NCBI GenBank assembly: GCA_022376465.1
Contig: JACDTU010000009.1
Coordinates: 620,001-684,000 of the forward strand
Length of the DNA stretch: 64,000 bases
Direction: 5' to 3'
DNA from: Cubamyces lactineus
Lineage: Eukaryota > Basidiomycota > Agaricomycetes > Polyporales > Polyporaceae
Shown here: piece by piece, positions 2,479-56,301 of the stretch
How the letters are laid out: each line of letters starts with the position of its first letter
Numbering within the stretch: the first letter of the stretch is position 1
Made by a program: the position numbers and the translations under genes
Notes under the pieces: model-generated
The model's database searches: none
Told to the model about the DNA's origin: nothing
The model's input: only the letters and a program-made list of their open reading frames with translations

Positions 2479-2776
2479 ATGAGTACACAAGCTGATACAT
2501 TCCTTTCAACAGGTTATAGTACTGGAGCATCTGGTTTCGTCGGATCCCATGTCTGCCTCCACTTGTTGGAAGCAGGTTACCGGGTCAGAGGGTAAAGGTT
2601 GCTTCGCGTATGAAGGAAGGTGCCCGTGGCTCAGATCTAGGCTCAGATTTCGTCTCATCGCAGAACTGCTCGTGGCTATGCGCAAGAGGTTCGAACCTTA
2701 CTCAAACTTGTCGAGATCAGAGACATGGTTACGATGGTTACGATCGACTTCTACAGGCGATGAAAGGTTCGAGGTA
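2479..2776 (+). pseudogene. NAD(P)-dependent epimerase / DFR-like gene, 5' portion, split by insertion
   Basis: The glycine-rich Rossmann motif GASGFVGSHVCLHLLEAGYR (2524-2583) is the amino-terminal nucleotide-binding signature of extended short-chain dehydrogenases (epimerase / dihydroflavonol-4-reductase type). The downstream half of the same fold, DAIIHVASP and the C-terminal domain, is at 56303-57408, so the two pieces are one gene separated by the giant element. The copy looks decayed. The strand before GASGF is one base out of frame (VIV then TGASG expected). The usual TVRS segment after YRVRG is lost, with a frame change at about 2590. The last readable words before the insertion are GDERFEV. 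An ATG in frame with the Rossmann motif is at 2479. Confidence 0.75.
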
Positions 2777-2804
2777 CAGTCAACACCCTCTTAACCCATA
2801 CCTC
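2774..2804 (+). repeat. Left terminal inverted repeat of the giant element
   Basis: A 31-bp sequence that is identical to the reverse complement of 56271-56301. It starts with the palindromic GTAC shared with the target, then AGTCAACACCC, and includes the AACCCATA motif that recurs many times at the other end. Downstream of 2804 the two ends diverge, although further GGGTTA-type motifs follow at about 2820-2850. Confidence 0.95.
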
Positions 2805-3195
2805 CCGGGAAATCGGGCAAGGTATGGGTTATCACTGGGGTTATGGGCTACGAGGAAAGACGCCCAACAAGCGCCCGGACATGTTGTATTAAGCGCCCAC
2901 GTACTGTACATGAGCGAAACGTGTTCCTGAGACCAACAGTCCATAAGCGTAATCTCAACAAGGTTTCTCTGCAATTCATAGCGTGTCTGGCATACAAATT
3001 GGCGCAGAACCTCTTCCACCTTGTGCGCAAGGCCGTCATCCTGTGCGCTGGTGAACCGTGTGAGGACGGCCGCGGCTTGGAGTGCTTCCAATGCGAGCTC
3101 GACGTGGTGCAATCTGACGCTGAGGAAGCTGGAATGCTTCTTTCAACTGATTTAGGGGGACCGGGGATGCCGAGGACGTCAGGATCAGAGTGCAG
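2805..3195. other. Left subterminal region, non-coding
   Basis: Several short ORFs overlap here on both strands but none is recognisable. The first 50 bases contain inverted copies of the TATGGGTTA motif. The rest is GC-richer than the zone that follows at 3235, and I see nothing gene-like. Confidence 0.5.
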
Positions 3196-3196
3196 A

Positions 3197-3267
3197 CGCG
3201 CATCACCGGGGGCTTCGTCGTGTGAAACATGTTGTCACATTGTGATCACATTGTAGTCTCTGGCAAA
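3197..3267 (+). repeat. Subterminal inverted repeat, left copy (~70 bp)
   Basis: This stretch (CACCGGGGGCTTCGTCGTGT at its left, TCTCTGGCAAAATG at its right) matches the reverse complement of 56031-56101 with only a handful of differences. It therefore forms a second pair of inverted repeats about 400 bp inside the left TIR and about 200 bp inside the right one. Such paired blocks are expected for transposase-binding or end-synapsis sites. Confidence 0.85.
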
Positions 3268-3299
3268 ATGGCCTTTATGTTTTAGTGTACGTTTCACAG

Positions 3300-4080
3300 T
3301 AATGTTATTGAAAATATGTCTGCAATGTAGCAATGCTGGCAATCTACATAAGGCAGTCAATGAATGTGTATGTTTCATTCTAACCATTACTTGGGTGCAA
3401 CCAGGTGTGCCATTATGGTCCAAGGTGAGTCCACATAATACATTTGGTCAGGGTGAAACTGTAAAATTTATGGAGCATAACAAAGAGAATGGTGGTGACC
3501 ATAAAGAAAGTGTATATTATGGGTATGACTGAATGATGCATCATGATTGCATGTTAGTCTAAAACTGATCAACAGGTTAAATTGTAAAAACGTGTAACAA
3601 ATCATCGCATCAAACTCACATTATGGATGGCACTCAAATAGCTTTCCTTGTTACATTTGAAATGACACATAATAGCTCACTGTAGAATTATGTATGGTGC
3701 AATCACAAAAATGCCTTCATGTATATGTTATGTGATAAAATGTAGCATTTCAGATCAGAAAAAGATGCCATCAGGGTAGGACAATACAAATGGGAAAAAT
3801 GTGAAAAGAATGTGAGTATAGTTTTTTCAAAATGAGGGAATACAATAATAATGTCAATCACTGTAATCATTACAACTACTACTAACCACTAGGGTCTGCA
3901 AACACTGTCACAACAGGCATAGCTATGCGGGTGGTAAAATTACAAAAAGAATTACCACTACTACAACCACTACAATAATATCGCCAAGAAAATAATCTCC
4001 ACAATCAAGCCAAAAAAGCTGGTCTTGTAGGTGGTCGTTAACAAATAGTGACAACTACGTGCGTGATTATAAAAATGGGG
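3300..4080. repeat. Left AT-rich zone with imperfect palindrome
   Basis: This is AT-rich, low-complexity DNA, unlike the GC-richer flanks. Within it 3365-3680 is an imperfect inverted repeat: GTGTGCCATTATGG at 3405 faces a diverged complement (TTATGGATGGCACTC) at 3621. The outer arms (TATGTTTCATTC at 3369, ACATTTGAAATGACACAT at 3652) also pair loosely. A related palindrome lies at the other end (about 55640-55960). From 3840 the sequence is rich in ACT/CTA-type simple repeats. A diverged coding relic (words such as FMEHNKENGG) can be read at about 3470, but it cannot be assigned to a family. Confidence 0.65.
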
Positions 4081-4081
4081 G

Positions 4082-7000
4082 CGTAAACATAGCGATCTGA
4101 TCAACATTAACAGAGGCACACAGGGTTAGTCTTGTTATCGCAGCGGGCAGGGTCTTAGCGTGGCAGCGACTGCCTCCGCGTGCAAATGCACAATCGCACA
4201 GGGTTAGCGATCTGATCAACGTTAACAGAGGCGCACAGGGTTAGTCTTGTTATCGCAAGCAATCTGATCAACGTTAATGGAGGCGCACAGGGTTAGCGAG
4301 CTGATCAACGTTAACAGAGGCGCACAGGGTTAGTCTTGTTATCGCAGCGGGCAGGGTCTTAGCGTGGCAGCGACTGCCTCCGCGTGCAAACGCACAATCG
4401 CACAGGGTTAGCGATCTGATCAACGTTAACAGAGGCGCACAGGGTTAGTCTTGTTATCGCAGCGGGCAGGGTCTTAGCGTGGCAGCGACTGCCTCCGCGT
4501 GCAAACGCACAATCGCACAGGGTTAGCGATCTGATCAACGTTAACAGAGGCGCACAGGGTTAGTCTTGTTATCGCAAGCAATCTGATCAACGTTAATGGA
4601 GGCGCACAGGGTTAGCGATCTGATCAACGTTAACAGAGGCGCACAGGGTTAGTCTTGTTATTGCAGCGGGCAGGGTCTTAGCGTGGCAGCGACTGCCTCC
4701 GCGTGCAAACGCACAATCGCACAGGGTTAGCGATCTGATCAACGTTAACAGAGGCGCACAGGGTTAGTCTTGTTATCGCAGCGGGCAGGGTCTTAGCGTG
4801 GCAGCGACTGCCTCCGTGTGCAAACGCACAATCGCACAGGGTTAGCGATCTGATCAACGTTAACAGAGGCGCACAGGGTTAGTCTTGTTATCGCAGCGGG
4901 CAGGGTCTTAGCGTGGCAGCGACTGCCTCCGTGTGCAAACGCACAATCGCACAGGGTTAGCGATCTGATCAACGTTAACAGAGGCGCACAGGGTTAGTCT
5001 TGTTATCGCAGCGGGCAGGGTCTTAGCGTGGCAGCGACTGCCTCCGCGTGCAAACGCACAATCGCACAGGGTTAGCGATCTGATCAACGTTAACAGAGGC
5101 GCACAGGGTTAGTCTTGTTATCGCAGCGGGCAGGGTCTTAGCGTGGCAGCGACTGCCTCCGCGTGCAAACGCACAATCGCACAGGGTTAGCGATCTGATC
5201 AACGTTAACAGAGGCGCACAGGGTTAGTCTTGTTATCGCAAGCAATCTGATCAACGTTAATGGAGGCGCACAGGGTTAGCGATCTGATCAACGTTAACAG
5301 AGGCGCACAGGGTTAGTCTTGTTATCGCAGCGGGCAGGGTCTTAGCGTGGCAGCGACTGCCTCCGCGTGCAAACGCACAATCGCACAGGGTTAGCGATCT
5401 GATCAACGTTAACAGAGGCGCACAGGGTTAGTCTTGTTATCGCAGCGGGCAGGGTCTTAGCGTGGCAGCGACTGCCTCCGTGTGCAAACGCACAATCGCA
5501 CAGGGTTAGCGATCTGATCAACGTTAACAGAGGCGCACAGGGTTAGTCTTGTTATCGCAAGCAATCTGATCAACGTTAATGGAGGCGCACAGGGTTAGCG
5601 ATCTGATCAACGTTAACAGAGGCGCACAGGGTTAGTCTTGTTATCGCAGCGGGCAGGGTCTTAGCGTGGCAGCGACTGCCTCCGTGTGCAAACGCACAAT
5701 CGCACAGGGTTAGCGATCTGATCAACGTTAACAGAGGCGCACAGGGTTAGTCTTGTTATCGCAGCGGGCAGGGTCTTAGCGTGGCAGCGACTGCCTCCGC
5801 GTGCAAACGCACAATCGCACAGGGTTAGCGATCTGATCAACGTTAACAGAGGCGCACAGGGTTAGTCTTGTTATCGCAAGCAATCTGATCAACGTTAATG
5901 GAGGCGCACAGGGTTAGCGATCTGATCAACGTTAACAGAGGCGCACAGGGTTAGTCTTGTTATCGCAGCGGGCAGGGTCTTAGCGTGGCAGCGACTGCCT
6001 CCGCGTGCAAACGCACAATCGCACAGGGTTAGCGATCTGATCAACGTTAACAGAGGCGCACAGGGTTAGTCTTGTTATCGCAGCGGGCAGGGTCTTAGCG
6101 TGGCAGCGACTGCCTCCGTGTGCAAACGCACAATCGCACAGGGTTAGCGATCTGATCAACGTTAACAGAGGCGCACAGGGTTAGTCTTGTTATCGCAGCG
6201 GGCAGGGTCTTAGCGTGGCAGCGACTGCCTCCGTGTGCAAACGCACAATCGCACAGGGTTAGCGATCTGATCAACGTTAACAGAGGCGCACAGGGTTAGT
6301 CTTGTTATCGCAGCGGGCAGGGTCTTAGCGTGGCAGCGACTGCCTCCGTGTGCAAACGCACAATCGCACAGGGTTAGCGATCTGATCAACGTTAACAGAG
6401 GCGCACAGGGTTAGTCTTGTTATCGCAGCGGGCAGGGTCTTAGCGTGGCAGCGACTGCCTCCGCGTGCAAACGCACAATCGCACAGGGTTAGCGATCTGA
6501 TCAACGTTAACAGAGGCGCACAGGGTTAGTCTTGTTATCGCAAGCAATCTGATCAACGTTAATGGAGGCGCACAGGGTTAGCGATCTGATCAACGTTAAC
6601 AGAGGCGCACAGGGTTAGTCTTGTTATTGCAGCGGGCAGGGTCTTAGCGTGGCAGCGACTGCCTCCGCGTGCAAACGCACAATCGCACAGGGTTAGCGAT
6701 CTGATCAACGTTAACAGAGGCGCACAGGGTTAGTCTTGTTATCGCAGCGGGCAGGGTCTTAGCGTGGCAGCGACTGCCTCCGTGTGCAAACGCACAATCG
6801 CACAGGGTTAGCGATCTGATCAACGTTAACAGAGGCGCACAGGGTTAGTCTTGTTATCGCAGCGGGCAGGGTCTTAGCGTGGCAGCGACTGCCTCCGTGT
6901 GCAAACGCACAATCGCACAGGGTTAGCGATCTGATCAACGTTAACAGAGGCGCACAGGGTTAGTCTTGTTATCGCAGCGGGCAGGGTCTTAGCGTGGCAG

Positions 7001-9855
7001 CGACTGCCTCCGTGTGCAAACGCACAATCGCACAGGGTTAGCGATCTGATCAACGTTAACAGAGGCGCACAGGGTTAGTCTTGTTATCGCAGCGGGCAGG
7101 GTCTTAGCGTGGCAGCGACTGCCTCCGCGTGCAAACGCACAATCGCACAGGGTTAGCGATCTGATCAACGTTAACAGAGGCGCACAGGGTTAGTCTTGTT
7201 ATCGCAAGCAATCTGATCAACGTTAATGGAGGCGCACAGGGTTAGCGATCTGATCAACGTTAACAGAGGCGCACAGGGTTAGTCTTGTTATTGCAGCGGG
7301 CAGGGTCTTAGCGTGGCAGCGACTGCCTCCGCGTGCAAACGCACAATCGCACAGGGTTAGCGATCTGATCAACGTTAACAGAGGCGCACAGGGTTAGTCT
7401 TGTTATCGCAGCGGGCAGGGTCTTAGCGTGGCAGCGACTGCCTCCGTGTGCAAACGCACAATCGCACAGGGTTAGCGATCTGATCAACGTTAACAGAGGC
7501 GCACAGGGTTAGTCTTGTTATCGCAGCGGGCAGGGTCTTAGCGTGGCAGCGACTGCCTCCGTGTGCAAACGCACAATCGCACAGGGTTAGCGATCTGATC
7601 AACGTTAACAGAGGCGCACAGGGTTAGTCTTGTTATCGCAGCGGGCAGGGTCTTAGCGTGGCAGCGACTGCCTCCGCGTGCAAACGCACAATCGCACAGG
7701 GTTAGCGATCTGATCAACGTTAACAGAGGCGCACAGGGTTAGTCTTGTTATCGCAAGCAATCTGATCAACGTTAATGGAGGCGCACAGGGTTAGCGATCT
7801 GATCAACGTTAACAGAGGCGCACAGGGTTAGTCTTGTTATTGCAGCGGGCAGGGTCTTAGCGTGGCAGCGACTGCCTCCGCGTGCAAACGCACAATCGCA
7901 CAGGGTTAGCGATCTGATCAACGTTAACAGAGGCGCACAGGGTTAGTCTTGTTATCGCAGCGGGCAGGGTCTTAGCGTGGCAGCGACTGCCTCCGCGTGC
8001 AAACGCACAATCGCACAGGGTTAGCGATCTGATCAACGTTAACAGAGGCGCACAGGGTTAGTCTTGTTATCGCAAGCAATCTGATCAACGTTAATGGAGG
8101 CGCACAGGGTTAGCGATCTGATCAACGTTAACAGAGGCGCACAGGGTTAGTCTTGTTATTGCAGCGGGCAGGGTCTTAGCGTGGCAGCGACTGCCTCCGC
8201 GTGCAAACGCACAATCGCACAGGGTTAGCGATCTGATCAACGTTAACAGAGGCGCACAGGGTTAGTCTTGTTATCGCAGCGGGCAGGGTCTTAGCGTGGC
8301 AGCGACTGCCTCCGTGTGCAAACGCACAATCGCACAGGGTTAGCGATCTGATCAACGTTAACAGAGGCGCACAGGGTTAGTCTTGTTATCGCAGCGGGCA
8401 GGGTCTTAGCGTGGCAGCGACTGCCTCCGTGTGCAAACGCACAATCGCACAGGGTTAGCGATCTGATCAACGTTAACAGAGGCGCACAGGGTTAGTCTTG
8501 TTATCGCAGCGGGCAGGGTCTTAGCGTGGCAGCGACTGCCTCCGCGTGCAAACGCACAATCGCACAGGGTTAGCGATCTGATCAACGTTAACAGAGGCGC
8601 ACAGGGTTAGTCTTGTTATCGCAAGCAATCTGATCAACGTTAATGGAGGCGCACAGGGTTAGCGATCTGATCAACGTTAACAGAGGCGCACAGGGTTAGT
8701 CTTGTTATCGCAGTGGGCAGGGTCTTAGCGTGGCAGCGACTGCCTCCGCGTGCAAACGCACAATCGCACAGGGTTAGCGATCTGATCAACGTTAACAGAG
8801 GCGCACAGGGTTAGTCTTGTTATCGCAAGCAATCTGATCAACGTTAATGGAGGCGCACAGGGTTAGCGATCTGATCAACGTTAACAGAGGCGCACAGGGT
8901 TAGTCTTGTTATTGCAGCGGGCAGGGTCTTAGCGTGGCAGCGACTGCCTCCGCGTGCAAACGCACAATTGCACAGGGTTAGCGATCTGATCAACGTTAAC
9001 AGAGGCGCACAGGGTTAGTCTTGTTATCGCAGCGGGCAGGGTCTTAGCGTGGCAGCGACTGCCTCCGCGTGCAAACGCACAATCGCACAGGGTTAGCGAT
9101 CTGATCAACGTTAACAGAGGCGCACAGGGTTAGTCTTGTTATCGCAAGCAATCTGATCAACGTTAATGGAGGCGCACAGGGTTAGCGATCTGATCAACGT
9201 TAACAGAGGCGCACAGGGTTAGTCTTGTTATCGCAGCGGGCAGGGTCTTAGCGTGGCAGCGACTGCCTCCGTGTGCAAACGCACAATCGCACAGGGTTAG
9301 CGATCTGATCAACGTTAACAGAGGCGCACAGGGTTAGTCTTGTTATCGCAGCGGGCAGGGTCTTAGCGTGGCAGCGACTGCCTCCGTGTGCAAACGCACA
9401 ATCGCACAGGGTTAGCGATCTGATCAACGTTAACAGAGGCGCACAGGGTTAGTCTTGTTATCGCAGCGGGCAGGGTCTTAGCGTGGCAGCGACTGCCTCC
9501 GCGTGCAAACGCACAATCGCACAGGGTTAGCGATCTGATCAACGTTAACAGAGGCGCACAGGGTTAGTCTTGTTATCGCAAGCAATCTGATCAACGTTAA
9601 TGGAGGCGCACAGGGTTAGCGATCTGATCAACGTTAACAGAGGCGCACAGGGTTAGTCTTGTTATCGCAGTGGGCAGGGTCTTAGCGTGGCAGCGACTGC
9701 CTCCGCGTGCAAACGCACAATCGCACAGGGTTAGCGATCTGATCAACGTTAACAGAGGCGCACAGGGTTAGTCTTGTTATCGCAAGCAATCTGATCAACG
9801 TTAATGGAGGCGCACAGGGTTAGCGATCTGATCAACGTTAACAGAGGCGCACAGG
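4082..9855 (+). repeat. Left tandem array (115-bp and 89-bp units)
   Basis: About 5.8 kb of near-identical head-to-tail repeats. Every unit starts with the A segment (GCGATCTGATCAACGTTAAC, then GGCGCACAGGGTTAGTCTTG). It is followed either by a longer B segment with GGGCAGGGTCTTAGCG, giving 115 bp, or by a shorter C segment that is a diverged A copy with GTTAATGGAGG, giving 89 bp. The CACAGGGTTA word closes each subunit and contains the basidiomycete telomere hexamer in permuted form. Variation is limited to a few recurrent single-base changes, for example CGCGTG/CGTGTG in B and TATCGCA/TATTGCA in A. No long ORF exists in any frame. The array ends abruptly in the copia gag fragment at about 9855. 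Confidence 0.97.
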
Positions 9856-10555
9856 GGCGACGCAGACAATTGGCCTGGTAATGCCCCTTCTGGGCACAAC
9901 GGTAGCATGTGATCATGGACAGCAGGACGCATGGGCGAGCAGCGGCAGCGACAAGTGCAGGTTCATTTCCAGCAAGCGTAGGCAACATGATCGGATTCTG
10001 GCGAGATTCTTCGTTCAGGAGGTGGTTGACAACATAGTCAAATGTGAGGGATTCATTGGGGGTGGAGCCCAGGGTTATGACACATTGTTCATACGACAAC
10101 GGCAGACTGCCTGTCAGTACAACAATGCAGTCTTCGTCAGTGAGGTTGACACTAATTTTGGTGAGTTGGACGGCGGCACAACGGACGTCTCCGACCCATG
10201 TCGACATCGACTGGTCAGGGTTCATCGCCATCTGGAAGAACGCACGGCGATGGGAGAGGTGTGTACCAAAGCCACGAGCTTGGTGCAACATTTTGAGATC
10301 CTCCCAGACGTTAGGGGCGTCCATGCTCTTGATGTGCGGCAGCTGCGACAGCTCGACATTGAGGATTATCTCCGCGCAGGCTTCATTGGACTTCCGTTTC
10401 CATGATTTGACGATCTTCGTGTTTGGTGAGCCAAGTGGCTTAGTGTCCACGCTGGAGGCAACATCCCAGAGGCCCTTCCTTACCAGGATGGCCTCCATGA
10501 GCATCGACCATTCAGCATAGTTTGTTTTGTTCAGCTTCAAGATTGAGGGCGACAT
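9855..10555 (-). pseudogene. gag: Ty1/copia retrotransposon Gag fragment
   Basis: On the minus strand the ATG at 10555 opens with SPSILKLNKTNYAEWSMLM, the classic copia Gag start (L-x-G/K-x-NY-x-W). A helical Gag body follows, and then a CCHC zinc knuckle CYRCAQKGHYQANC at about 9890. Immediately after the knuckle the reading frame enters the tandem array at about 9855 and ends in array sequence at 9749. Protease, integrase and reverse transcriptase are absent. It is therefore a truncated retrotransposon copy whose pol side was lost or replaced where the array begins. The Gag frame itself is unbroken. Confidence 0.88.
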
Positions 10556-11339
10556 CTTTGACAAGATTCGATTGAGTGGGCGTCAATGGGTCAATGGGGT
10601 AGGGTTTGACAGCAAGCCAGCGAGGTCAATCGGCATGTTGCGGCAAGGGTAGGGGGGGTTCAATTGAGTCGGCGTGGCCAGACGAGGTCAATCAACATGT
10701 CGTCGAGGTGGGTGCTCCGAATGCCCTCAGAGTGGGGTTATGCGTTTGTGTGAGATTCGAGGGTGAGACAGGCGAGTGCATGGGAAAGAAGTGAATAATG
10801 GCGCGTTTGCGCGTGTATTAAAGAGCAACAGGAAGTGGGGGGGAGGTGGTGGTGCAAACACGTAAGGCGTCAAGGTATGTCAAGGCAAGGTATATACGGG
10901 GCACATGTGCCACTATCAAGCATCTGGTTGGGATGCGCCGCGATAGCGCATGTGTCAGTCGCGCGAGCTCAACTGACGAGCGTCAAATACAACATTAGCA
11001 ACCGTGCGGTAGCTATGAGGAAATGTTCTATTGTATAGTTATAAGTGCCCTGTACTAGACGGCGGTGCGAGCTGCCAAGGAATTGTAGAATTTATGACAA
11101 AGATATGCTCTAAATTAACAAGAACATAGTTAATATATTGTCCATGAAGATGTGATGGGTTTTGGCTGTGCCCGCGTGAGGGTGCTCGACGTGCGAGCTC
11201 GCGCTCCCTTAGGGCAAAAGCCACCCTGGGTGCCATATATGGGCCGCTGCGCGGCCCGTCCTGTCCCGAGACGACCCTTGGAATGACCAATTTGCCTGTT
11301 ATCTTTGCTCTTTGGGCGCTTATGATCAATCAGGTTGGG
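10556..11339. other. Region upstream of gag, possible copia leader/LTR remnant
   Basis: No gene is recognised. Read on the minus strand it lies 5' of gag, where the retrotransposon leader and 5' LTR would be. A TATATACCTTGCC word (about 10890, minus strand) and a TGTTGTATTTGACGC word (about 11000, minus strand) could be LTR promoter and LTR start, but with no second LTR the borders cannot be proved. Confidence 0.3.
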
Positions 11340-11348
11340 CTCCTGCAA

Positions 11349-11566
11349 ACTTGAGGTTAATTACCCAGCAGATTTGCTCGGGTTTTCGAAGTCAGTTCAA
11401 CCTCCGCAGTGGCGCATCAGTGCTTACCTCGTCCTTCTGCCACCGACCGGCGCTTACACCGCGCCCCGCCCGCGCGACATTGGGCTCGTCGCGCACGCCT
11501 CTCGCGCGTCCTCGTTCCTCGCGCGCGCACGCTTTTGTAGAATACCTGATCAGTAATATATGTCTT
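11349..11566 (+). repeat. MULE left terminal inverted repeat
   Basis: About 218 bp matching the reverse complement of 15134-15352 with few differences. It includes a GC-rich stretch with many CGCG words and ends near TACCTGATCAG...ATATATGTCTT. Confidence 0.93.
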
Positions 11567-11681
11567 CGTCCATGTGCATCACGTGGCTTGTAGATCGTAT
11601 GTCAGTGAAGGAGATGTCGCGCACATGAAAAAAAGACCTGTACTAGTACCTCCGCAGCCTGGTACATTGTGCCTATTGGCC

Positions 11682-14600: not shown

Positions 14601-15093
14601 GACTGGACGTGACGGCCTCCTGCGTACACGAGCAGGTGGTGGAACGGGTTTCGAGCTCGATGATGAGGAGGAGCTGGAGATCGAAGATCTTGAGCGCTGC
14701 CTGAGGGATGCCATCAAGATCATTCAACAGCAGGCAGAGAACCCAGAGGAGCGCTTCATGCATACGGCAGTGAAGCAATTCCGCGGAACAATCGCGTGGG
14801 TCTGCGGACTTGACAGCCGCGAGATGCCTTCTGACCTTGAAAGGCTTAGTGCAACAGAAGCCACGGTATTCCTCACCCGTGCGCTGACGCTCGTTAAGGA
14901 GCATCGGCGTTCTGATGGCAGCCTCAGTGTTCTATCTGGAGCGATGAAACACACACAGAATCTGGTAACTTGGGTTCGCGCCATCGCACTCTCCAAGACG
15001 AGGCGGACAATGGTGAAAACAAACGGGGATGGGCGTGGGGAAAGGAATTCTGCACTTATGTATGGTTATCATAATACTAATGAGAGCGACTGA
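11682..15093 (+). CDS. MULE transposase with SWIM zinc finger
   Basis: Multi-exon gene filling the nested MULE. The ATG at 11682 starts a short Cys-rich module (CDEC then CQRC) in exon 1, which runs to about 12079. Middle exons carry GWLHLNF-like and KSVYYYWH words and DSTCALG/NTNGGDFELFAAI, followed by GIPLAFVFLRTLKDAPSGAK and HQLCFWHALRALK, the usual MULE DDE-core surroundings. The last long exon (13345-15093 or part of it) has VEALWRGIKCLVLHMYNRPR and the SWIM finger WTCDCGAQKYHAYLLCKHLV (C-x-C-xn-C-x-H). The enzyme cuts and inserts the element by recognising its TIRs. Introns are short and their exact borders in 12.1-13.4 kb are uncertain. No clear inactivating change was seen. Confidence 0.88.
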
Positions 15094-15133
15094 AACAGTG
15101 AGCGCATCAACATGGACCGTCTGTTTGGGTGGC

Positions 15134-15352
15134 AAGACATATATTCCTGATCAGGTATTCTACAAAAGCGTGCGCGCGCGAGGAACGAGGACGCGCGAGA
15201 GGCGTGCGCGACGAGCCCAATGTCGCGCGGGCGGGGGCGCGGTGTAAGCGCCGGTCGGTGGCGGGAGGACGAGGTAAGCACTGATGCGCCACTGCGGAGG
15301 TTGAACTGACTTCGAAAACCCGAGCAAATCCGCTGGGTAATTAACCTCAAGT
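15134..15352 (-). repeat. MULE right terminal inverted repeat
   Basis: Reverse complement of 11349-11566, ending TTAACCTCAAGT and followed by the second CTCCTGCAA target copy at 15353-15361. Confidence 0.93.
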
Positions 15353-44809: not shown

Positions 44810-44960
44810 CAAGACAAAGGACGAGTCGTCCTCGAGGCCTTAGCACCGGGTGGCTCACGATGTAGCTGAGGGGCGGAAGGGCTCATGACTGCACAACCAC
44901 GGTCGAATCCCCACTTCCGCCGTGCTCTCCCGTATCACAACCTCCCGCCGCTCATGCACA

Positions 44961-47900
44961 ATGGACCCCCCAGTCGGTAAGTCAAAATATCAGATTTGCA
45001 GTATCACAAAGACCAGCAATGGCGGTACCGCGTAACGATAGTAATAATCACTGCTCTCTATTGAAGAACACAATGATGCTGCTCCGGCCGACCCTCCTTC
45101 CATGGACGCTGGCCCGCCCTCGGTTCCCAGCTCTACCGGAGCTGTTAACACCGGGTCATCAATCGGAGGTTCCGAGAACGTTGAAGCTCATGCACTGATC
45201 GTAGGCGACATGCAGACTCGTGGTACGTTGTCTTGTACGTCTCTTGGGATGCGTTAGTACCAATATTCTGCAAGATGCGCCGGACAGCTCGAGGAAGCGT
45301 GCAGCGGATGAAAGCGCTGACGATACTGGCCCAAGTCGACATGCTGGGTCTAGCTCAGCAACCCTTCAAGCTCGCCGAATGCGTTCTCTGCCAGGTACCA
45401 TTCCCTGATTATGAGGTTTACTGTGGCTAATAGATTCTGATCAGCGAGGGGCCATGCGAGTGCTATCCGCGCTCCCCCTCAAGCGCTAGCTCAAGAGGAC
45501 GGTGTAGATGGAGTAGCCTCGGTTGCAGAGTTACCGCATGATCCATTTGCGGCACCGCATAAGAAGCGTCGCCTCCAAGGGCCGTCCGTCAATGTGTTCT
45601 TGAGGGATCTGTTGAGCATCGTGAGTAACGCAAGCCCCGAAGGTTCCGAGAGCTCCTCAGGCTCCTCAACACTTCCCGCTATTCGGCGGCTTCTCCGCGA
45701 GAACGGAATAACCCTCGGTGAAGACGTGGATGAGACCGATGTTGACGAAGACATGAGTGAGGACGGCCACGGTGGCGGTAGTGAGTTTCCTCCTGGCATA
45801 GCTACGCCATCTGGAGTAAGCTTGTTTTGTTTTCCTATATGCGATGTGTCCTCACACGACTCTAGATGACGCTAATTGACCAGTGCAACTCCCTGCAAAC
45901 AAGCCGCGCTCCTCTACCCATCCCTCCCAATGTGTCAGGTGATCAGGATTGGTCCATGAACGATTCCTCATCTGCGCCTGTGAGTATACCGGCCTAATTT
46001 TTGTTCCAACAATCTGACGAATTGGCCTTCGCAAACGCACTTGCGACCACACTTCAGGCCCTTCAGGATCCCTTGTTGGACGCTTCGACGCCGGGTTCCT
46101 CGGCTCGCTTAGGGCAACCAACCACCCCCACGCGCCCTACCGTGACAGATATGACAACCACTCCATCATACAGTCCTCCCGCCCCAAGTATGTTTCGTGG
46201 TATCGGCGCCTTCATCAGTAACGTGGCGAACGTTGCACAAAGGACAGCGAACTTGGCCACAGAGTACGCATCCTACAGGAACATGGGGTCGCTTGCCGGG
46301 TCTTCTACCTTCGGCATGTCTGGAGCAAACCAAGAAGCAGCTTCTTCTACCGTGGATACTACTCTGTCAGAGACTATGCACGGTTCTATGCCCTTGTTGA
46401 GCAGCGCCTCTACGCTGTTCGCATCCAGTAGTCCATGGCAGCCTACGAACATGCGGTCAAGCAAGGAAGAGGGAAGTGCATCACGTCCAGGCGACTACCT
46501 GAGCCTCAGCGAGATGTCGTCGTCTGTTCTCGCCCCAGAAACATCAGCTCCCTCACCCAGCGACGGTGTTGCATCGGCAGCGTATCTTCCCGCTCCCTCT
46601 GCACCTTCTCCAGAGCTTATTGCGTTGCGCACGATGCCCCCCTTGCCGACCGCCTCAGCTATGGATATCGAAGGTGAATGTGATTGCATCCCCGCTTATT
46701 GATGAATCTAACGAGCGCGATACCAGGCCGTACTACCACTGTCTTGTCAATGGCTGGGGATCAAGGCACTAATGCAGTCATGACTGGCACGATGTGTAAC
46801 ACCGAAGGTATCATGCAGGACCACGATGGTGAGTTGCCGTCCTCCTAAGTGTCGATCATCGTCAAGATCTTACTACTTATAGGGCATGCGGGCCGTGTAG
46901 GAGCAACAGCCGTAGGGTATTGTGACACCGCCGGCAGCGTGGAAGAACCGGGCGTCGCGGCCATACGTCAGCAATCGCATGGCCAAGTGGCTATTGAAGC
47001 GGACTTCAACTCGCCTGCTCAGACATCTGCAGAGCTCACGCCGGTCGAGCGTGTTGTTTCTCCCATCATGCCTTCTGAACGTCGTGCCTCAGAACCATCC
47101 GATATGTTTGCTACAATTACCAATGCTCAGTATGACGTTCTCAACCCGCGTCTGCCGACCACCACTCCCGGTCAGCCTGGAGCTGAAATCAGCGTGAACG
47201 CACTTCCGGCAATACCTGTACAGAACGAGGACAACGCCCATCCTATATCGGATCCAGATGAATCTCCGTCCTCACCCGTGACCTTCATACATGATGGTCC
47301 CCAGCAAGCAGTCGTCGGCTATCCCCCTACTTCCTTGAGGCCCCTTCATCCTCGCGAGGCTCCCTCCTCAACTCGAACGGATAACGTGGAACATGTTACA
47401 CTTGACAATGCCTCAGATAACGGCGAGTCTTCAGGGGCGGCATCGACACGCAAGATACCTCCGTGGGCCGTCCATCGCCCTCGCGGGTCGACGCAGTGGA
47501 GCGTGAGTGAAGGTTCTCTACCGAGAAGTCCTGATCGCGATGGTCGTGCATCTACGCGCTCGGGAGGCGCTGAGACCGATCCTAGTCAGGCTTATGGACA
47601 AAATCAGTCTGGTCTTCGTAGCGCTAGACGAAGTTCAAACCTCCCCTCACCATCGACGACGCCGGTGTCTGTGGCACACGACCAAGGGCATGGGATTGCC
47701 GTGCTCGATTCTCTGGCACCCCACCGACATGGTTCACCGTCCTCACCTTCCTCCTTGGTCCCCGAGTCAACGATACCCCAATACGTGGGAGGCACCACAG
47801 ACCAAGCAATGAGCCGGACGAGCACCCATTTTAATGCGAATGCGGACCCTAGCGCCGACATACAAAACAATTCGTCGAGCGTTCAAAACTCCGCGCATGT

Positions 47901-50190
47901 AATCCATTCGGCTAGTCGCTTGGCTCTACAAGATCTCGATGAATCAACCTCGTCGCTTTCACTCAACCTGGAGGGTATCCGTGCACATCTGGCTCCACGA
48001 TCACAAACTAGCTTCGGTTCGCGGTATTCACCCTTTCCGCCGCTACCGGCATCTCTTCCTGTGACATACTCGTCGCGGCACCGCCGCTTTTCGAATCTTC
48101 GTCCGCTCAGTATGTGTCCTCGAGCCGTATCTCTCGTTCAGAGTGCCCACGCTGAAACTGCGTCGCTTATAGCCTCTCGTCGTAACCTGTCGTCGACGCC
48201 CCCGGGGTGGAGCACTGGTGATACCTCCACGAACGCGCCGTTGTCTAGGGCCACCTCTCAGCGGAACCGCTCGCCGCATAGCGCGCACTCAAGACAGCAG
48301 CCGCGTGCATCTGCCCCTCTACCCATAGACGAAGCCGTAGACGAGTCGCTTCTCGTGCAATTGCGTTCAACCTCAAGTGGTAGGGCCTTATCGCCATCTG
48401 CTCAGCTTCCGACATTTTCAGCTGGGGGCGACACTGAGGATGGCTCCAGACCCCATCCATCTGACGTTGTACCTCCGCCGCACCCTGCGCTTATACCGGT
48501 GGCCCCCGTGTCGACGCTGAGGATGTCGACACCTTCAGGACCTTCATTGGCGCCTCAGATACCCTCCTCCGCGCCTTTGGGATCCTCCTCCGCGCCTTTG
48601 GGACCCTCCTCCGCGCCTTTGAGACCCTCCTCCGCGCCTTTGGGACCCTCCTCCGCGCCTTTGGGACCCTCCTCCGCGCCTTTGGGACCCTCCTCCGCGC
48701 CTTTGGGACCCTCACTACCGGAGATGCCACCGTCTTCGGCTCCAGGACAATCATCCTCAGCCTCTGACCCGGGGCACGGGAACGAAAACGGAAACGGAGA
48801 CGGAGACGGAGACGGAGACGGAGACGGAGACGGAGACGACGCATCGGTACGCAATTTGTCAGCTATGTGTAACATCATGCTCATGTTCTCACAGACGGAC
48901 GCCCCTGCGACCCGAGGAGATATCACACGACTGGTTGCTGCTGTGGATGGGTTGTCGACCGAAATTCGCGGTATGTCAGGGCGGTCAAGTAGCAATCCGC
49001 GGGGTCCGGCGCGCCATGGTCAGAGGAGTTCGGGGAATAATGGGCCGCCAGCGCCATCGCCTGATCATGCCAATGACGCCGACACCGAGTCGGATCATCC
49101 CCCGAGGAGGCTTACGCGCAGACCCAAACGCCGGGGTGCAGAACAAACGCGTCTTGCGGTGAGTAGAAGCAAAGCAGACATCGTCGACCGTACTAACGCA
49201 CCCCTCTCGTCAGACGGATGTGCAGACACATGCGCTTGTTCTCATGCGCCGCGAGAACAAGAAGTCTAGATTCGATGCGTCAACAGTTGCAACCACACGT
49301 CAGGTCCGCGGCTTCCTGCCAGAAGAGGACCGTTGTTGCACCCCAGAGCAATTTTGTCTCGATCTCAGCAGCACCCCTGGATCACCATGGAACGAATCTG
49401 CGACCAAAGTATTCGTCGACGATTTCCTCAGCGTCGATATCTACGCTTGTAGGAACCGTCAGAAGATTACTGGCATGTTCCGCAAACATTTCCGTACGCT
49501 CCAACGACAGTACAAGAAATACGGTATAATCGACGCAAACGCACCGACCACATCGAACGGCTCCTCTTCTTCTAATCCACATGCTACGGCGGCGTCTTCG
49601 TCGACTGGCCCATCTGCGAATCCCGGAGCTACCTCATCCAATGCTGCTGCCGCCGTCAATAGCCCCACCGACGCTGACAAGGAGCATAGTAGGCAGCAGA
49701 GGCGTTACACTGTGAGTCCGTAAGCGTACACCATCTACTTCTACTGATCTCGACGGCCTTCTAGCTTTTTCACCGCCGATATAGAATTGCTCTGCGCTAT
49801 GACTATCTCCTCCGTCATACCAGGATCCTTCAGCGCCTCGGCGTGGATGGGATGAGCTCCGACGAGGAGGATTCTGGCTCAGCATACCGTCGGTACCGTG
49901 TTGCGCGCAAGCCTTGGCGTCATCCTCAGGTGACCGCATTTCTACGGGTGCTTGACGCCATGCATCGACGTTGGCGTAGCCGTGCCGGGCAGGGATCACT
50001 TCGGGGGGCATCGCCTCGGCTTCGCTTCGAGTCCACGAATGTCTCCATCGAATCTCGACCCGTTCCCGGTCTTCCTCGCAACGCCTATGATCCGGATTGG
50101 CTCAATTCTTTGACTACCGTTCAGCGGGAGGACCTGCACATCGACGAACAGCTTTACGATTTCAGCCATCACGTTGAAGTCCTGGCGTGA
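44961..50190 (+). CDS. Very long Ser/Pro-rich protein with conserved C-terminal domain
   Basis: ATG at 44961 (MDPPV). At least ten exons join in frame: DPPSMDAGPPSVPSSTGAVN, DDTGPSRHAGSSSATLQARR, DPFAAPHKKRRLQGPSVNVF (possible nuclear signal) and MFRGIGAFISNVANVAQRTA. The long exon (about 46883-49158) carries about ten copies of an APLGPSS-type repeat (48550-48720) and a GDGDGD tract (48790-48840). The C-terminal exons carry VRGFLPEEDRCCTPEQFCLD, a basic helical stretch RKHFRTLQRQYKKYGI, and a block LFHRRYRIALRYDYLLRHTR, LGVDGMSSDEEDSG, LRVLDAMHRRW and YDPDWLNSLT, with a stop at 50190. The C-terminal block resembles a common uncharacterised basidiomycete protein. Position next to the right array suggests a TnpA-like end-binding partner of the transposase (inference). 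Confidence 0.65.
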
Positions 50191-50699
50191 GTCAAATGAT
50201 ATTCCCCTCCGTTCATAGGCTGACACGTCCGCCTTGCAGAGAATGCGCTCAGTACAGGAATACGGTGCAAGACGGGGTCACATTTGTATGAGTGCGTGTG
50301 ATGGAGTTGTTCTTGTAGTATTTAGGTGTAATATGGCAGACCTCGGCCTCCAGTCTCCTAGTGTTGTGAATGGGCTGGACTTGTTGGCTGGTTGTAGACG
50401 CGGTTGTATTGATCCTATCGGCCCGCCGGAATGAAGCCGTATATTTTCTCCCGAGGCTCTCCCGTTTTATCCTGATTCCCCCGAGACGAGACCCGGTATG
50501 CGTGACATAACTGCCGGGAGCTGTCGGGCGTTTCTTCGCCGAGTCCTCCCGCCAAGAACTTCTGGCCCCCTGGGGTGCGCCGGAGACCGGCGGACTCAAA
50601 AGGAACGGATAAGATTAGATAACGACGTCAAATCTACCTTGTTACATCAGCTCGGATACCAGTTACAATCCTCATCACACAAGTAGGCTTAGCTCGCTT
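50191..50699. other. Spacer between long gene and right array
   Basis: No gene recognised. It probably includes the 3' untranslated region of the preceding gene. Confidence 0.4.
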
Positions 50700-53600
50700 A
50701 GTGCAGAGCGGACATAACGCACAGGCTTATCTTGTTTGTTGCACAGCGCGCACAGGCTTAGCTCGCTTAGCATGGAGTGTACGTATCACACAGGCTTAGC
50801 TTGTTTGTCGCACAGCCCGCACAGGCAGCATATGTACAGGCTTAGCTCGCTTAGTGCAGAGTGTACGTACCGCACAGGCTTATTTTGTTTATCGCACAGC
50901 CCGCACAGGCAGCATATGTACAGGCTTAGCTTGCTTAGCGCAGAGCGGACGTACCGCACAGGCTTGTCTTGTTTGTCGCACAGTGCGCACAGGCTTATCT
51001 TGTTTATTGCACAGCGCGCACAGGCTTAGCTCGCTTAGCGCAGAGCGGACGTACTGCACAGGCTTATTTTGTTTATCGCACAGCGCGCACAGGCTTAGCT
51101 CGCTTAGCGCAGAGTGCACGTACCGCACAGGCTTATCTTGTTTGTCGCACAGCACGCACAGGCTTAGCTCGCTTAGCACAGAGCGGACGTACCGCACAGG
51201 CTTATTTTGTTTATCGCACAGTGCGCACAGGCAGCATATGTACAGGCTTAGCTCGCTTAGCGCAGAGTGCACGTACCGCACAGGCTTATCTTGTTTGTCG
51301 CACAGTGCGCACAGGCTTAGCTCGCTTAGCATGGAGTGTACGTACCGCACAGGCTTAGCTTGTTTATCGCACAGCCCGCACAGGCAGCATATGTACAGGC
51401 TTAGCTCGCTTAGCGCAGAGTGCACGTACCGCACAGGCTTATCTTGTTTGTCGCACAGCGCGCACAGGCTTAGCTCGCTTAGCGCAGAGTGCACGTACCG
51501 CACAGGCTTATCTTGTTTGTCGCACAGCGCGCACAGGCTTATCTTGTTTATTGCACAGCGCGCACAGGCTTAGCTCGCTTAGCATGGAGTGTACGTACCG
51601 CACAGGCTTAGCTTGTTTATCGCACAGTGCGCACAGGCAGCATATGTACAGGCTTAGCTCGCTTAGCGCAGAGTGCACGTACCGCACAGGCTTATCTTGT
51701 TTGTCGCACAGCACGCACAGGCTTAGCTCGCTTAGCACAGAGCGGACGTACCGCACAGGCTTATTTTGTTTATCGCACAGTGCGCACAGGCAGCATATGT
51801 ACAGGCTTAGCTCGCTTAGCGCAGAGTGCACGTACCGCACAGGCTTATCTTGTTTGTCGCACAGCGCGCACAGGCTTATCTTGTTTATCGCACAGCGCGC
51901 ACAGGCTTAGCTCGCTTAGCATGGAGTGTACGTACCGCACAGGCTTAGCTTGTTTATCGCACAGTGCGCACAGGCAGCATATGTACAGGCTTAGCTCGCT
52001 TAGCGCAGAGTGCACGTACCGCACAGGCTTATCTTGTTTGTCGCACAGCGCGCACAGGCTTATCTTGTTTATCGCACAGCGCGCACAGGCTTAGCTCGCT
52101 TAGCATGGAGTGTACGTACCGCACAGGCTTAGCTTGTTTATCGCACAGCCCGCACAGGCAGCATATGTACAGGCTTAGCTCGCTTAGCGCAGAGTGCACG
52201 TACCGCACAGGCTTATCTTGTTTGTCGCACAGCGCGCACAGGCTTAGCTCGCTTAGCATGGAGTGTACGTACCGCACAGGCTTAGCCCGCTTAGCGCAGA
52301 GCAGACGTACCGCACAGGCTTATTTTGTTTATCGCACAGCGCGCACAGGCAGCATATGTACAGGCTTAGCTCGCTTAGCGCAGAGTGCACGTACCGCACA
52401 GGCTTATCTTGTTTGTCGCACAGTGCGCACAGGCTTAGCTCGCTTAGCATGGAGTGTACGTACCGCACAGGCTTAGCTTGTTTATCGCACAGCGCGCACA
52501 GGCAGCATATGTACAGGCTTAGCTCGCTTAGCGCAGAGTGCACGTACCGCACAGGCTTATCTTGTTTGTCGCACAGTGCGCACAGGCTTAGCTCGCTTAG
52601 CATGGAGTGTACGTACCGCACAGGCTTAGCTTGTTTATCGCACAGCCCGCACAGGCAGCATATGTACAGGCTTAGCTCGCTTAGCGCAGAGTGCACGTAC
52701 CGCACAGGCTTATCTTGTTTATCGCACAGCGCGCACAGGCTTAGCTCGCTTAGCATGGAGTGTACGTACCGCACAGGCTTAGCTTGTTTATCGCACAGCC
52801 CGCACAGGCAGCATATGTACAGGCTTAGCTCGCTTAGCGCAGAGTGCACGTACCGCACAGGCTTATCTTGTTTATCGCACAGCGCGCACAGGCTTAGCTC
52901 GCTTAGCATGGAGTGTACGTACCGCACAGGCTTAGCCCGCTTAGCGCAGAGCAGACGTACCGCACAGGCTTATTTTGTTTATCGCACAGCGCGCACAGGC
53001 AGCATATGTACAGGCTTAGCTCGCTTAGCGCAGAGTGCACGTACCGCACAGGCTTATCTTGTTTGTCGCACAGTGCGCACAGGCTTAGCTCGCTTAGCAT
53101 GGAGTGTACGTACCGCACAGGCTTAGCTTGTTTATCGCACAGCCCGCACAGGCAGCATATGTACAGGCTTAGCTCGCTTAGCGCAGAGTGCACATACCGC
53201 ACAGGCTTATCTTGTTTGTCGCACAGCACGCACAGGCTTAGCTCGCTTAGCACAGAGCGGACGTACCGCACAGGCTTAGCTTGTTTATCGCACAGCCCGC
53301 ACAGGCAGCATATGTACAGGCTTAGCTCGCTTAGCGCAGAGTGCACGTACCGCACAGGCTTATCTTGTTTGTCGCACAGCGCGCACAGGCTTAGCTCGCT
53401 TAGCGCAGAGTGCACGTACCGCACAGGCTTATCTTGTTTGTCGCACAGCGCGCACAGGCTTATCTTGTTTATTGCACAGCGCGCACAGGCTTAGCTCGCT
53501 TAGCATGGAGTGTACGTACCGCACAGGCTTAGCTTGTTTATCGCACAGCCCGCACAGGCAGCATATGTACAGGCTTAGCTCGCTTAGCGCAGAGTGCACG

Positions 53601-55150
53601 TACCGCACAGGCTTATCTTGTTTATCGCACAGCGCGCACAGGCTTAGCTCGCTTAGCATGGAGTGTACGTACCGCACAGGCTTAGCTTGTTTATCGCACA
53701 GCCCGCACAGGCAGCATATGTACAGGCTTAGCTCGCTTAGCGCAGAGTGCACGTACCGCACAGGCTTATCTTGTTTATCGCACAGCGCGCACAGGCTTAG
53801 CTCGCTTAGCATGGAGTGTACGTACCGCACAGGCTTAGCCCGCTTAGCGCAGAGCAGACGTACCGCACAGGCTTATTTTGTTTATCGCACAGCGCGCACA
53901 GGCAGCATATGTACAGGCTTAGCTCGCTTAGCGCAGAGCGGACGTACCGCACAGGCTTGTCTTGTTTGTCGCACAGTGCGCACAGGCTTAGCTCGCTTAG
54001 CACAGAGCGGACGTACCGCACAGGCTTATCTTGTTTATCGCACAGCGCGCACAGGCTTAGCTCGCTTAGCGCAGAGTGCACGTACCGCACAGGCTTATCT
54101 TGTTTGTCGCACAGCGCGCACAGGCTTATCTTGTTTATCGCACAGCGCGCACAGGCTTAGCTCGCTTAGCATGGAGTGTACGTACCGCACAGGCTTAGCT
54201 TGTTTATCGCACAGCCCGCACAGGCAGCATATGTACAGGCTTAGCTCGCTTAGCGCAGAGTGCACGTACCGCACAGGCTTATCTTGTTTGTCGCACAGCG
54301 CGCACAGGCTTATCTTGTTTATCGCACAGCGCGCACAGGCTTAGCTCGCTTAGCATGGAGTGTACGTACCGCACAGGCTTAGCCCGCTTAGCGCAGAGCA
54401 GACGTACCGCACAGGCTTATTTTGTTTATCGCACAGCGCGCACAGGCAGCATATGTACAGGCTTAGCTCGCTTAGCGCAGAGTGCACGTACCGCACAGGC
54501 TTATCTTGTTTGTCGCACAGTGCGCACAGGCTTAGCTCGCTTAGCATGGAGTGTACGTACCGCACAGGCTTAGCTTGTTTATCGCACAGCCCGCACAGGC
54601 AGCATATGTACAGGCTTAGCTCGCTTAGCGCAGAGTGCACGTACCGCACAGGCTTATCTTGTTTGTCGCACAGCGCGCACAGGCTTAGCTCGCTTAGCGC
54701 AGAGCGGACATACCGCACAGGCTTATTTTGTTTATCGCACAGCGCGCACAGGCTTAGCTCGCTTAGCGCAGAGTGTACGTACCGTACAGGCTTATTTTGT
54801 TTATCGCACAGCGCGCACAGGCTTAGCTCGCTTAGCATGGAGTGTACGTACCGCACAGGCTTAGCTTGTTTATCGCACAGCCCGCACAGGCAGCATATGT
54901 ACAGGCTTAGCTCGCTTAGCGCAGAGCGGACGTACCGCACAGGCTTATCTTGTTTGTCGCACAGCGCGCACAGGCTTAGCTCGCTTAGCATGGAGTGTAT
55001 GTACCGCACAGGCTTAGCTTGTTTATCGCACAGCCCGCACAGGCAGCATATGTACAGGCTTAGCTCGCTTAGCGCAGAGCAGACGTACCGCGCAGGCTTA
55101 TCTTGTTTATCGCACAGCGCGCACAGGCTTAGCTTATGTAGCACAGAGTA
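50700..55150 (+). repeat. Right tandem array (CACAGGCTTA-based, 153-bp higher-order unit)
   Basis: About 4.4 kb built of short blocks that begin CACAGGCTTA and alternate between CTCGCTTAGCGCAGAG, TCTTGTTTGTCGCACAG and a CAGCATATGTACAGGCTTA block. The commonest higher-order period is 153 bp (for example from about 52587 to 52740). Because 153 is a multiple of three, several frames on both strands stay open for hundreds of codons, with products repeating TYRTGLSCLSHSAHRLSSLS; these are not genes. The CACAGGCTTATCTTGTTTATCGCA block is the same orientation and nearly the same sequence as CACAGGGTTAGTCTTGTTATCGCA in the left array. Confidence 0.97.
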
Positions 55151-56030
55151 ACATTGTATGCACCACCAGCATAATTTGCACTGTGTCGTCATTTTGCACA
55201 CACAGTAGCTGGTTAGCACAGTGCACACATGTTCCAGGATTAATTTAGTGTCCCACACCCACAACGATTGTGGTTGAAGTAGTAATGACAGTGGTGGTGG
55301 TGGCAGTGTTGGTGATAGTACAGGTGGTGACACTGTTGGATGTGATTGGCATAGTTGCAGTAGCTTGTATAGTAATAGGCCTTACAGAACGTTTGTGTTT
55401 GTTCAGAATGTGGTAATAGTTTTTGACATTATAGTGCATTCACATATTTACCACATTGATTTCACATTATGCATTCATTCTTTGTTTTTACAGGGTGTTA
55501 CATTGTATATCCATGCAGCTCCCACATTACTGTCATTTAGATTATGACTTGCTAATTCTCCATTTCCAACACGTTAACCTGACTTTACATTACTTCATAG
55601 TTTTTTCAGAATGTAACACCACAGAAGTTTTGTTAAGGCTATGAATGAACGTGGGTGTCTCATTTCAAATGTTACTTGAAATGCAATGGAGCTTGCCATT
55701 ACAACCTAATGTGTTTTTGCACAATATATTTGATCAGAATTACCTTGTGAGATTCATGGAGTATGGCACAAAGAACGGTGGGAAGCATGGAAAACAAGTG
55801 TGACCTTACTATCATTGAACAATGCATCATTGTCCCACGTTAGTCAAGAAAATATTAACAACGTAAATCTAAACATGGTGCAACAGATCGTTACATTGAA
55901 ATCACATTTGGAATGGCACTCCAACATCTCCACCTGTTTCATCTTCAATGTTGCATAGTATTTCTGTATTGATTCATCTGATATGCAACTACAATGTCTC
56001 TGGCCGTACAAATGTTCTCTCATTTTGCCA
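55151..56030. repeat. Right AT-rich zone with imperfect palindrome
   Basis: AT-rich, with a (GTG)n/(GTA)-type simple repeat at about 55260-55340 that mirrors the ACT-type repeat at 3840-3990. An imperfect inverted repeat spans about 55640-55960 (GAGCTTGCCATTACAA facing TTTGGAATGGCACTCC). Because the unit is palindromic it matches the left palindrome (3365-3680) in either orientation. No gene. Confidence 0.65.
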
Positions 56031-56101
56031 GAGACTACAATGTGGTCACAATGTGACGACGTGTTTCACACAACGAGGCCCCCGGTGCATGTGGTACACG
56101 C
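56031..56101 (-). repeat. Subterminal inverted repeat, right copy (~70 bp)
   Basis: Reverse complement of the block at 3197-3267 with a few mismatches (CATTTTGCCAGAGACTACAA at its left, GAGGCCCCCGGTG at its right). Confidence 0.85.
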
Positions 56102-56131
56102 CAACACATAAACCGCAGTGTCTTACATAAT

Positions 56132-56270
56132 CCAAGTATGGGTTATGGTACCGTCTGAAAAAGTATGGGTTATGGGTTATGAGAGGATTATGGGTTATGG
56201 GGTTGATTTCCCCCTATCCCGACTCGGGAAAGTCGAAATTGTATGGGTTATCACGGTTTATGGGTTAATA
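56132..56270. repeat. Right subterminal cluster of GGGTTA-type motifs
   Basis: Between the inner inverted repeat and the TIR, the word TATGGGTTA or a close variant occurs about eight times in 140 bp, mostly in one orientation. The hexamer GGGTTA is the permuted telomere repeat of most filamentous fungi, but spacing is irregular, so this looks like a protein-binding cluster, not a telomere tract. Fewer copies occur at the left end (2791-2850). Confidence 0.75.
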
Positions 56271-56301
56271 GAGGTATGGGTTAAGAGGGTGTTGACTGTA
56301 C
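56271..56301 (-). repeat. Right terminal inverted repeat of the giant element
   Basis: Perfect 31-bp reverse complement of 2774-2804, ending GGGTGTTGACTGTAC. The epimerase coding sequence resumes directly after it. Confidence 0.95.

Follow-up and report, generated by a model that had tools for sequence, protein, structure and literature searches.

A 52.9-kb CACTA/EnSpm element lodged in a small TA-target element within an epimerase intron of Cubamyces lactineus

The stretch analyzed here, referred to as the window, comprises 64,000 nucleotides of Cubamyces lactineus (C43:620001-684000; genome of 36.3 Mb on 43 contigs), in which an NAD(P)-binding epimerase/reductase gene is split by a large insert so that one part of the gene lies at each edge. 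Very probably, this arrangement results from two insertions, one inside the other: a small element with a TA target entered an intron of the epimerase gene, and a giant CACTA/EnSpm element entered the small element. Both nested junctions and both target duplications are visible in the sequence and the gene of a Tnp2 transposase lies inside. The uninterrupted site is available at both levels, for the outer insertion by joining the flanks and by the logic of the intron, and for the inner insertion from a sister of the small element on another contig, C39. All genome searches were run on this one assembly of one strain, match counts being lower bounds, and relatives are named by their contig in the same genome (C1, C3, C4, C7, C11, C23, C24, C39, C40 and C42). 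The coordinates of the features are collected in Table 1.

Alignment of the window with itself gave two inverted pairs around the core. The inner pair has a length of 67 bp and the ends CACCGGGGGC...GCCCCCGGTG, and 62 of its 67 positions are identical (92.5%). In the C39 sister (C39:161404-162319, 916 bp) the corresponding site is uninterrupted and reads GCGCATGTGG, with a single CAT, and the match of this sister to the right end starts at window position 56087. Removal of 3204-56087 together with one CAT leaves the contiguous CAGACGCGCATGTGGTACACGCC, as in the sister. From this uninterrupted CAGACGCGCATGTGGTACACGCC and the inner ends it follows that the giant corresponds to 3204-56087 and is not bounded by the outer pair, a repeat of 31 bp. 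For comparison, all CAC-anchored end pairs within the window were considered which span the core, agree in at least 11 of their first 14 bases and share the three flanking bases. Four pairs passed; the true pair had 36 of 40 matching bases and the others at most 20. Without the later nested Mutator-like element (MULE) the giant measures about 49 kb.

The outer pair (2774-2804 and 56301-56271) is identical at 31 of 31 positions by blastn of the window against itself, as the preliminary description of this DNA had reported. There, it was taken for the end of the giant; it belongs instead to an element of about 0.64 kb, resembling a miniature inverted-repeat transposable element (MITE), which the giant interrupts, and the inner 67-bp ends had been missed. 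A genome search with a 21-bp core of the repeat, allowing up to three mismatches, gave 29 matches and none with the reversed pattern. Twenty-four of the matches form 12 inverted pairs, including the one in the window, and five are unpaired; in the other 11 pairs the cores span 178-910 bp, all below 1 kb. The repeat reads CAGTCRACACCC or a one-base variant of it. Because TA stands at both ends of all 12 pairs while the base beyond it varies, the outer target duplication is TA and not the GTAC assumed before. The outer element is MITE-like and non-autonomous and sits in the 49-bp epimerase intron; it is short and shares its terminal inverted repeat (TIR) and the TA duplication with its family. 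The alignment with the C39 sister is poor from sister position 290 to about 700, the window copy being the shorter one (637 versus 918 bases compared). Three further copies of the family (C1:2087363, C4:1048752 and C7:172751) are 99.8-100% identical over 464 bp, indicating that the outer family moved recently.

The gene itself was reconstructed with its intact orthologue P0127 (347 aa) of Cubamyces sp. BRFM 1775. By tblastn, the left flank matched residues 11-34 of P0127 at 96% identity, followed by a weaker match to about residue 53, and the right flank matched residues 73-173 and 202-347. Joining the flanks computationally restored a 49-bp GT..AG intron, GCGATGAAAG/gttcgaggTActggtctcgtagaggtatctgaggattatctctgtgcag/ATATGGATGCC, with the translation AMKDMDAIIHVASPI, and the protein across the restored splice reads AMK/DMDAIIHVASPI versus AMEDVDAVVHVASPI in P0127. 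Both halves of one gene are accordingly at hand, confirming the earlier proposal of a single split epimerase gene. Furthermore, the paralogue P0136 (C43:709 kb) is likewise interrupted by an intron here, whose boundary reads TCAG/GTTCGCAG and whose 5' splice site is similar; this intron was called by eye from the sequence, and an automatic splice search of it returned nothing. As the left part of the window gene runs in shifting frames, the split gene is probably a pseudogene today. Its 3' half carries an annotation of its own as a separate protein of 236 aa, P0126.

For the order of events we propose that, in a first step, the small non-autonomous element with the ends CAGTCRACACCC would have landed in the epimerase intron at TA, presumably first and alone, and that in a second step the giant, with about 49-53 kb probably already a giant, would have inserted into it at CAT, duplicating these 3 bp. 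En/Spm elements are moved by a Tnp2-type cut-and-paste reaction with a 3-bp stagger, and the giant may in analogy have been cut and pasted at its 67-bp ends by its own DDE-type Tnp2. It carries accessory genes, some of which recur near further Tnp2 genes of the genome, together with passengers which were captured or arrived later (MULE, copia fragment, Tra1). Alternatively, in a refined form of the preliminary description, the giant could have been lodged in the small element beforehand, both entering the intron as one 53.5-kb unit by means of the 31-bp repeats and TA. The perfect outer repeats and the recent mobility of the outer family on C1, C4 and C7 would suit such a jump, but the 11 other paired copies are all below 1 kb, and if each element moved on its own, one after the other, the junctions are accounted for and no MITE system has to transport 53 kb. 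We regard the single jump as improbable; sequential insertion is the simpler order of events. Still less credible is an artefact of the assembly, in which unrelated stretches were joined through the two multi-kb satellite arrays flanking the core: each side independently holds one piece of the same small element and one part of the same gene, the target duplications match, and the window is without any ambiguous base (N).

Table 1 Features of the giant element, of the small element around it and of the split epimerase gene (positions in the window; ORF, open reading frame; TRF, Tandem Repeats Finder).
Feature	Position	Strand	Evidence
Epimerase 5' part, decayed	2521..2766	+	tblastn with P0127; frames broken further on
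First 10 bp of epimerase intron, the last 2 being the TA target (2775-2776)	2767..2776	+	Flank join; paralogue intron at the same place
Outer MITE-like element, left half, TIR CAGTCAACACCC...	2777..3203	.	83% over 292 columns to 916-bp C39 sister; TIR family
Left copy of the giant's 3-bp target duplication (CAT)	3201..3203	.	Junction reading
Giant CACTA/EnSpm element, 52,884 bp	3204..56087	.	67-bp TIRs, 3-bp duplication, paralogous empty site on C39, Tnp2 transposase
Left TIR of the giant	3204..3270	+	92.5% over 67 bp to right one
AT-rich subterminal segment, left	3349..3708	+	64.6% over 364 columns to 55634-55994, same orientation, E 1e-37
Left satellite array, units 37/115/204 bp, 106 copies of CACAGG[GC]TTAG	4090..9856	+	TRF; motif count
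copia-type gag fragment	9752..10582	-	Pfam Retrotran_gag_2 1.7e-30
MULE-like element, nested, 219-bp TIRs, 9-bp duplication CTCCTGCAA (8-11 bp with other end settings)	11349..15352	.	Self-alignment; 4.0 kb
SWIM-like ORF in MULE	13279-15090		Weak, E 0.016
Captured, decayed Tra1 fragment	17044..20403	-	Pfam Tra1_ring 8.1e-48 and 3e-17, Tra1_central 1.4e-36
Accessory ORF, relative in C24	27191..27568	-	38% over 89 aa, E 5e-14
Accessory ORF, relatives in C11 (2e-13) and C24 (8e-4)	32703..33236	+	C24 frame is the same one that 43584-44570 matches
WD40-type gene, two ORFs, relative in C24	33454..34637	+	Pfam WD40 1.3e-9; 30-36% identity to C24, E 7e-6 and 2e-14
Tnp2 transposase gene with SAP exon	38420..42558	+	Pfam Transposase_21; SAP
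Accessory ORF	43584..44570	+	2 genome matches: itself and C24:98715-99023, E 2.7e-10
Long Ser/Pro-rich ORF, without family	46849..49266	+	Pfam search
Accessory gene, DGMSSDE-motif protein, two ORFs read as two exons	49163..50187	+	Matches 9-20 kb from each of five long Tnp2 matches
Right satellite array, units 69/84/153 bp, 51 copies of CACAGG[GC]TTAG	50685..55134	+	TRF; motif count
AT-rich subterminal segment, right	55634..55994	+	Alignment to left segment
Right TIR of the giant	56021..56087	-	92.5% over 67 bp to left one
Right copy of the giant's 3-bp target duplication (CAT)	56088..56090	.	Junction reading
Outer MITE-like element, right half	56091..56298	.	94% over 213 bp to C39 sister
TA (56299-56300) and other 39 bp of epimerase intron (56301-56339)	56299..56339	+	Flank join
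Epimerase 3' part	56340..57405	+	tblastn P0127 residues 73-173, 202-347; annotated as 236-aa P0126

The transposase was identified by its Pfam match to Transposase_21 (E 2.2e-15; 56.9 bits against a cut-off of 28.6), accompanied by a SAP exon slightly below the cut-off (E 5.9e-5); the main ORF also matches Pfam Plavaka below the cut-off (2.2e-5). Of the D, D, E residues and the C(2)C and H(3-4)H motifs expected for CACTA/EnSpm, it exhibits CSMC, the conserved D241 and D338 and, read by eye, a candidate E at window position 41641 in FFSER, the H spacing being without a clear fit. At the level of unspliced ORFs the reading frames look open, and this Tnp2 would be the enzyme that moves the 67-bp ends. 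The frame has at least 14 matches in the genome, five of which are long (>450 aa). One of these is the window itself; the remaining long ones, one on C24, one on C11 and a pair on C40, are 39-47% identical to the window transposase.

Several accessory genes recur at these loci. At least seven matches were obtained for the accessory frame 49765-50187, which belongs to the DGMSSDE-motif gene, and five of them lie 9-20 kb from the five long Tnp2 matches. Three of the seven are weak (E 1e-4 to 3e-4), on C11 (9.8e-5), C42 and C40:1561561 (2.7e-4), two of these standing beside a long Tnp2 match. For the relatives of the same frame at C7:194977 and C42:587082, the nearest 300 kb are free of transposase matches. 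The C24 locus, which spans 35 kb (98.7-133.6 kb), has in common with the window the transposase, the DGMSSDE gene, the WD40-type gene, the 27191 frame and the 43584 family, three of these five shared genes forming a block that is inverted relative to the window. Since WD40 repeats are common, the WD40-type gene is the least specific of them. C11, of which 30 kb were examined, shares the transposase, the DGMSSDE gene and the 32703 frame, and both C40 loci hold the DGMSSDE gene beside the Tnp2 match. As the relatives at Tnp2 loci show only about 29-45% protein identity, the association of accessory genes with Tnp2 is old, which suggests that the accessory genes are old cargo; their recurrence at diverged Tnp2 loci argues that several of them were aboard early. 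At the DNA level, 42600-50680 had no other match in the genome search.

The function of the accessory proteins was approached by database searches. Pfam returned nothing for most accessory ORFs. For the DGMSSDE family eight database proteins were found at E <=1e-3, among which Trametes and Lenzites account for five; PF26792 is assigned to five of the eight, and a Pfam search of the window protein and of P0246 (Trametes sanguinea) gave no PF26792. A fold modelled on P0246 in place of the window protein reached a mean predicted local distance difference test score (pLDDT) of 70.1, with a best PDB match at E 2.8, and searches of viral contigs and of the PDB by sequence gave nothing informative.

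Adjoining the ends of the giant are AT-rich stretches with a GC content of 0.37-0.38, followed inwards by the arrays. The two arrays are different satellites with a common 11-bp core, CACAGG[GC]TTAG, which occurs in 157 copies on one strand; the remainder of the window is free of it, and no reversed copy was counted. A longer degenerate form of the core had 172 forward matches and one reverse match in the genome, and among the matches listed all but one (on C3, with three mismatches) fall within the two arrays of the window. CACTA/EnSpm elements are characterized by closely spaced direct and inverted subterminal repeats within several hundred bases of the ends; here, the 157 cores have one orientation and begin and end at distances of 0.9-6.7 kb. 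Plant elements employ a further protein, TNPA or TNP1, which attaches to the subterminal repeats, according to the available portion of PMC2613891. By analogy, the arrays and the recurrent DGMSSDE-motif protein may be regarded as a candidate TNPA-like subterminal binding system.

Some observations weigh against the proposed nested insertion of a mobile giant. The one genome search with the 67-bp end in the query found its own partner as the sole match (a lower bound), and only one giant copy could be delimited in the genome. At the related loci, CAC..GTG ends were sought in C24 (80,001-147,000) and C11 (90,001-120,000) and none were found. Finally, the arrays and the 364-column subterminal segments have the same orientation at both ends of the giant, unlike a plain inverted-end model. 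As the ends of the other loci are not delimited, a lineage of such giants is plausible and not established. In the C24 locus an inverted repeat of 4.19 kb (C24:92915-97098/133815-137965), 98.3% identical, brackets the shared genes, its outer ~180 bp being far less alike. It was considered as the long TIRs of a second giant and rejected, the near-identity stopping inside a weaker match and no duplication being seen. The motif CACCGGGGG at C24:84909 was likewise discarded as an end of a C24 element, since the sequence as far as 147,000 offered it no partner. On C11, a 5-kb AT-rich structure (C11:111840-116901) lies downstream of the Tnp2 locus and contains satellite arrays in inverted arrangement.

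The giant also contains foreign pieces, namely the MULE, which was inserted after the body of the giant had formed, and the copia gag fragment. A third passenger stems from Tra1, a large subunit of SAGA/NuA4. This piece shows 77-78% DNA identity to the host copy on C23 in two long stretches, carries stops and frameshifts and is missing about 6.3 kb relative to that copy, so that it looks like a captured dead fragment of a host gene. Summed over three stretches with a settable frame, a fourth being excluded, it differs from the C23 copy at 181 of 624 third codon positions (29.0%) and at 146 of 1255 first and second positions (11.6%). The fragment was rejected as proof of transfer between species; these values also roughly fit a capture within the lineage.

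With respect to these passengers and to the arrays of about 10 kb in sum, an ordinary-sized CACTA element could have inserted and then grown at this site, as other elements nested in it, sequences were captured and the arrays expanded, a course that is compatible with the nesting. Against it stand the relatives of the accessory genes at other Tnp2 loci (five shared genes in C24, two in C11 and one at each C40 locus) and the size of the remainder, coordinate arithmetic still leaving about 34 kb after subtraction of the MULE, the copia ORF, Tra1 and both arrays. Growth in place is judged unlikely, even if clearly less so than a single 53.5-kb jump, and we retain the insertion of an element that was large already as the more probable course.

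Beyond this one element, we tentatively raise the idea that giant CACTA/EnSpm elements of 35-50 kb might form a lineage of their own in polypore genomes and retain, together with Tnp2, a conserved set of cargo genes (the DGMSSDE-motif gene, WD40, a small W-rich family and others), as a Tnp2-driven counterpart of the Starships and with the long arrays as subterminal binding sites; it is somewhat more doubtful than not. If such a lineage were real, it would offer a testable route for the movement of gene blocks in mushrooms without a tyrosine recombinase. In the present case, a basidiomycete, a CACTA-type system is tied to a unit of about 50 kb which holds several additional genes and exceeds the largest EnSpm element among those compared here in the available portions of the literature about 2.5-fold. 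It also illustrates how ends can be misread where elements are nested, since the repeat with the highest identity was not that of the giant.

The inverted CAC..GTG termini, the 3-bp duplication (CAT) and Tnp2/Transposase_21 are all found in the giant. Because the available portion of PMC12730594 deems CAC..GTG ends with 3-bp duplications consistent with EnSpm and gives different ends for Plavaka, the giant was placed in CACTA/EnSpm. It is not the new class of giant mobile element that the preliminary description had seen in it; its reading as a DNA transposon that has a DDE-type Tnp2 gene and carries further genes, satellite arrays and a fragment captured from the host (Tra1) is supported. Unusual are its size, the two arrays with their common 11-bp core and the accessory genes with relatives near other Tnp2 genes. 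A fungal CACTA/EnSpm element of this size was not found in the literature searched, which left out supplements and most subscription papers, and a record in Repbase or elsewhere may exist; a library of transposable elements of Marasmius oreades has a maximum of about 42 kb, the kind not being stated in the available portion of the paper (PMC9674265).

Among known systems, as the cited papers present them in their available portions, the plant CACTA/EnSpm elements resemble the giant in Tnp2, in inverted ends starting with CAC and in the 3-bp duplication, and soybean Tgmt*, with 20.5 kb, likewise resides in an intron (PMC2613891). For Chenopodium, where Jozin and an element of C. quinoa were described, gene capture is reported, as is a satellite array of 5.55 kb in an element of 16.5 kb (PMC8978399). 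The giant differs from these plant elements by about 2.5 times the soybean length, by CACCG instead of CACTA ends, by arrays at both ends in one orientation and by several accessory genes with relatives at other Tnp2 loci. Enlarged EnSpm elements of red and brown algae carry accessory genes as well, in Chondrus with 16-20 kb and 4-5 ORFs (PMC6431247) and in Ectocarpus with a maximum of 15.2 kb, where nested transposable elements occur in the giants (PMC12477816); here, the element has 52.9 kb and belongs to a basidiomycete. The KDZ group also comprises large DNA transposons, of 30.3 kb in Ectocarpus and 31.7 kb in Chlamydomonas (PMC12477816); its fungal members have accessory genes, and its member Zisupton makes 8-bp duplications (PMC12730594), but its transposase group differs from that of the giant. 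Plavaka has a related transposase; its ends are TGT..ACA or CATCA..TGATG (PMC12730594), with which the CAC..GTG ends of the giant do not agree. No tyrosine recombinase captain appeared among the part of the element's ORFs that was run on Pfam, no search dedicated to it having been made. Starships, finally, are fungal giants centred on a tyrosine recombinase (PMC12134995), eight of which are described in the basidiomycete Tremella fuciformis (PMC13066641); they carry genes like the element described here, in which the transposase is a Tnp2.

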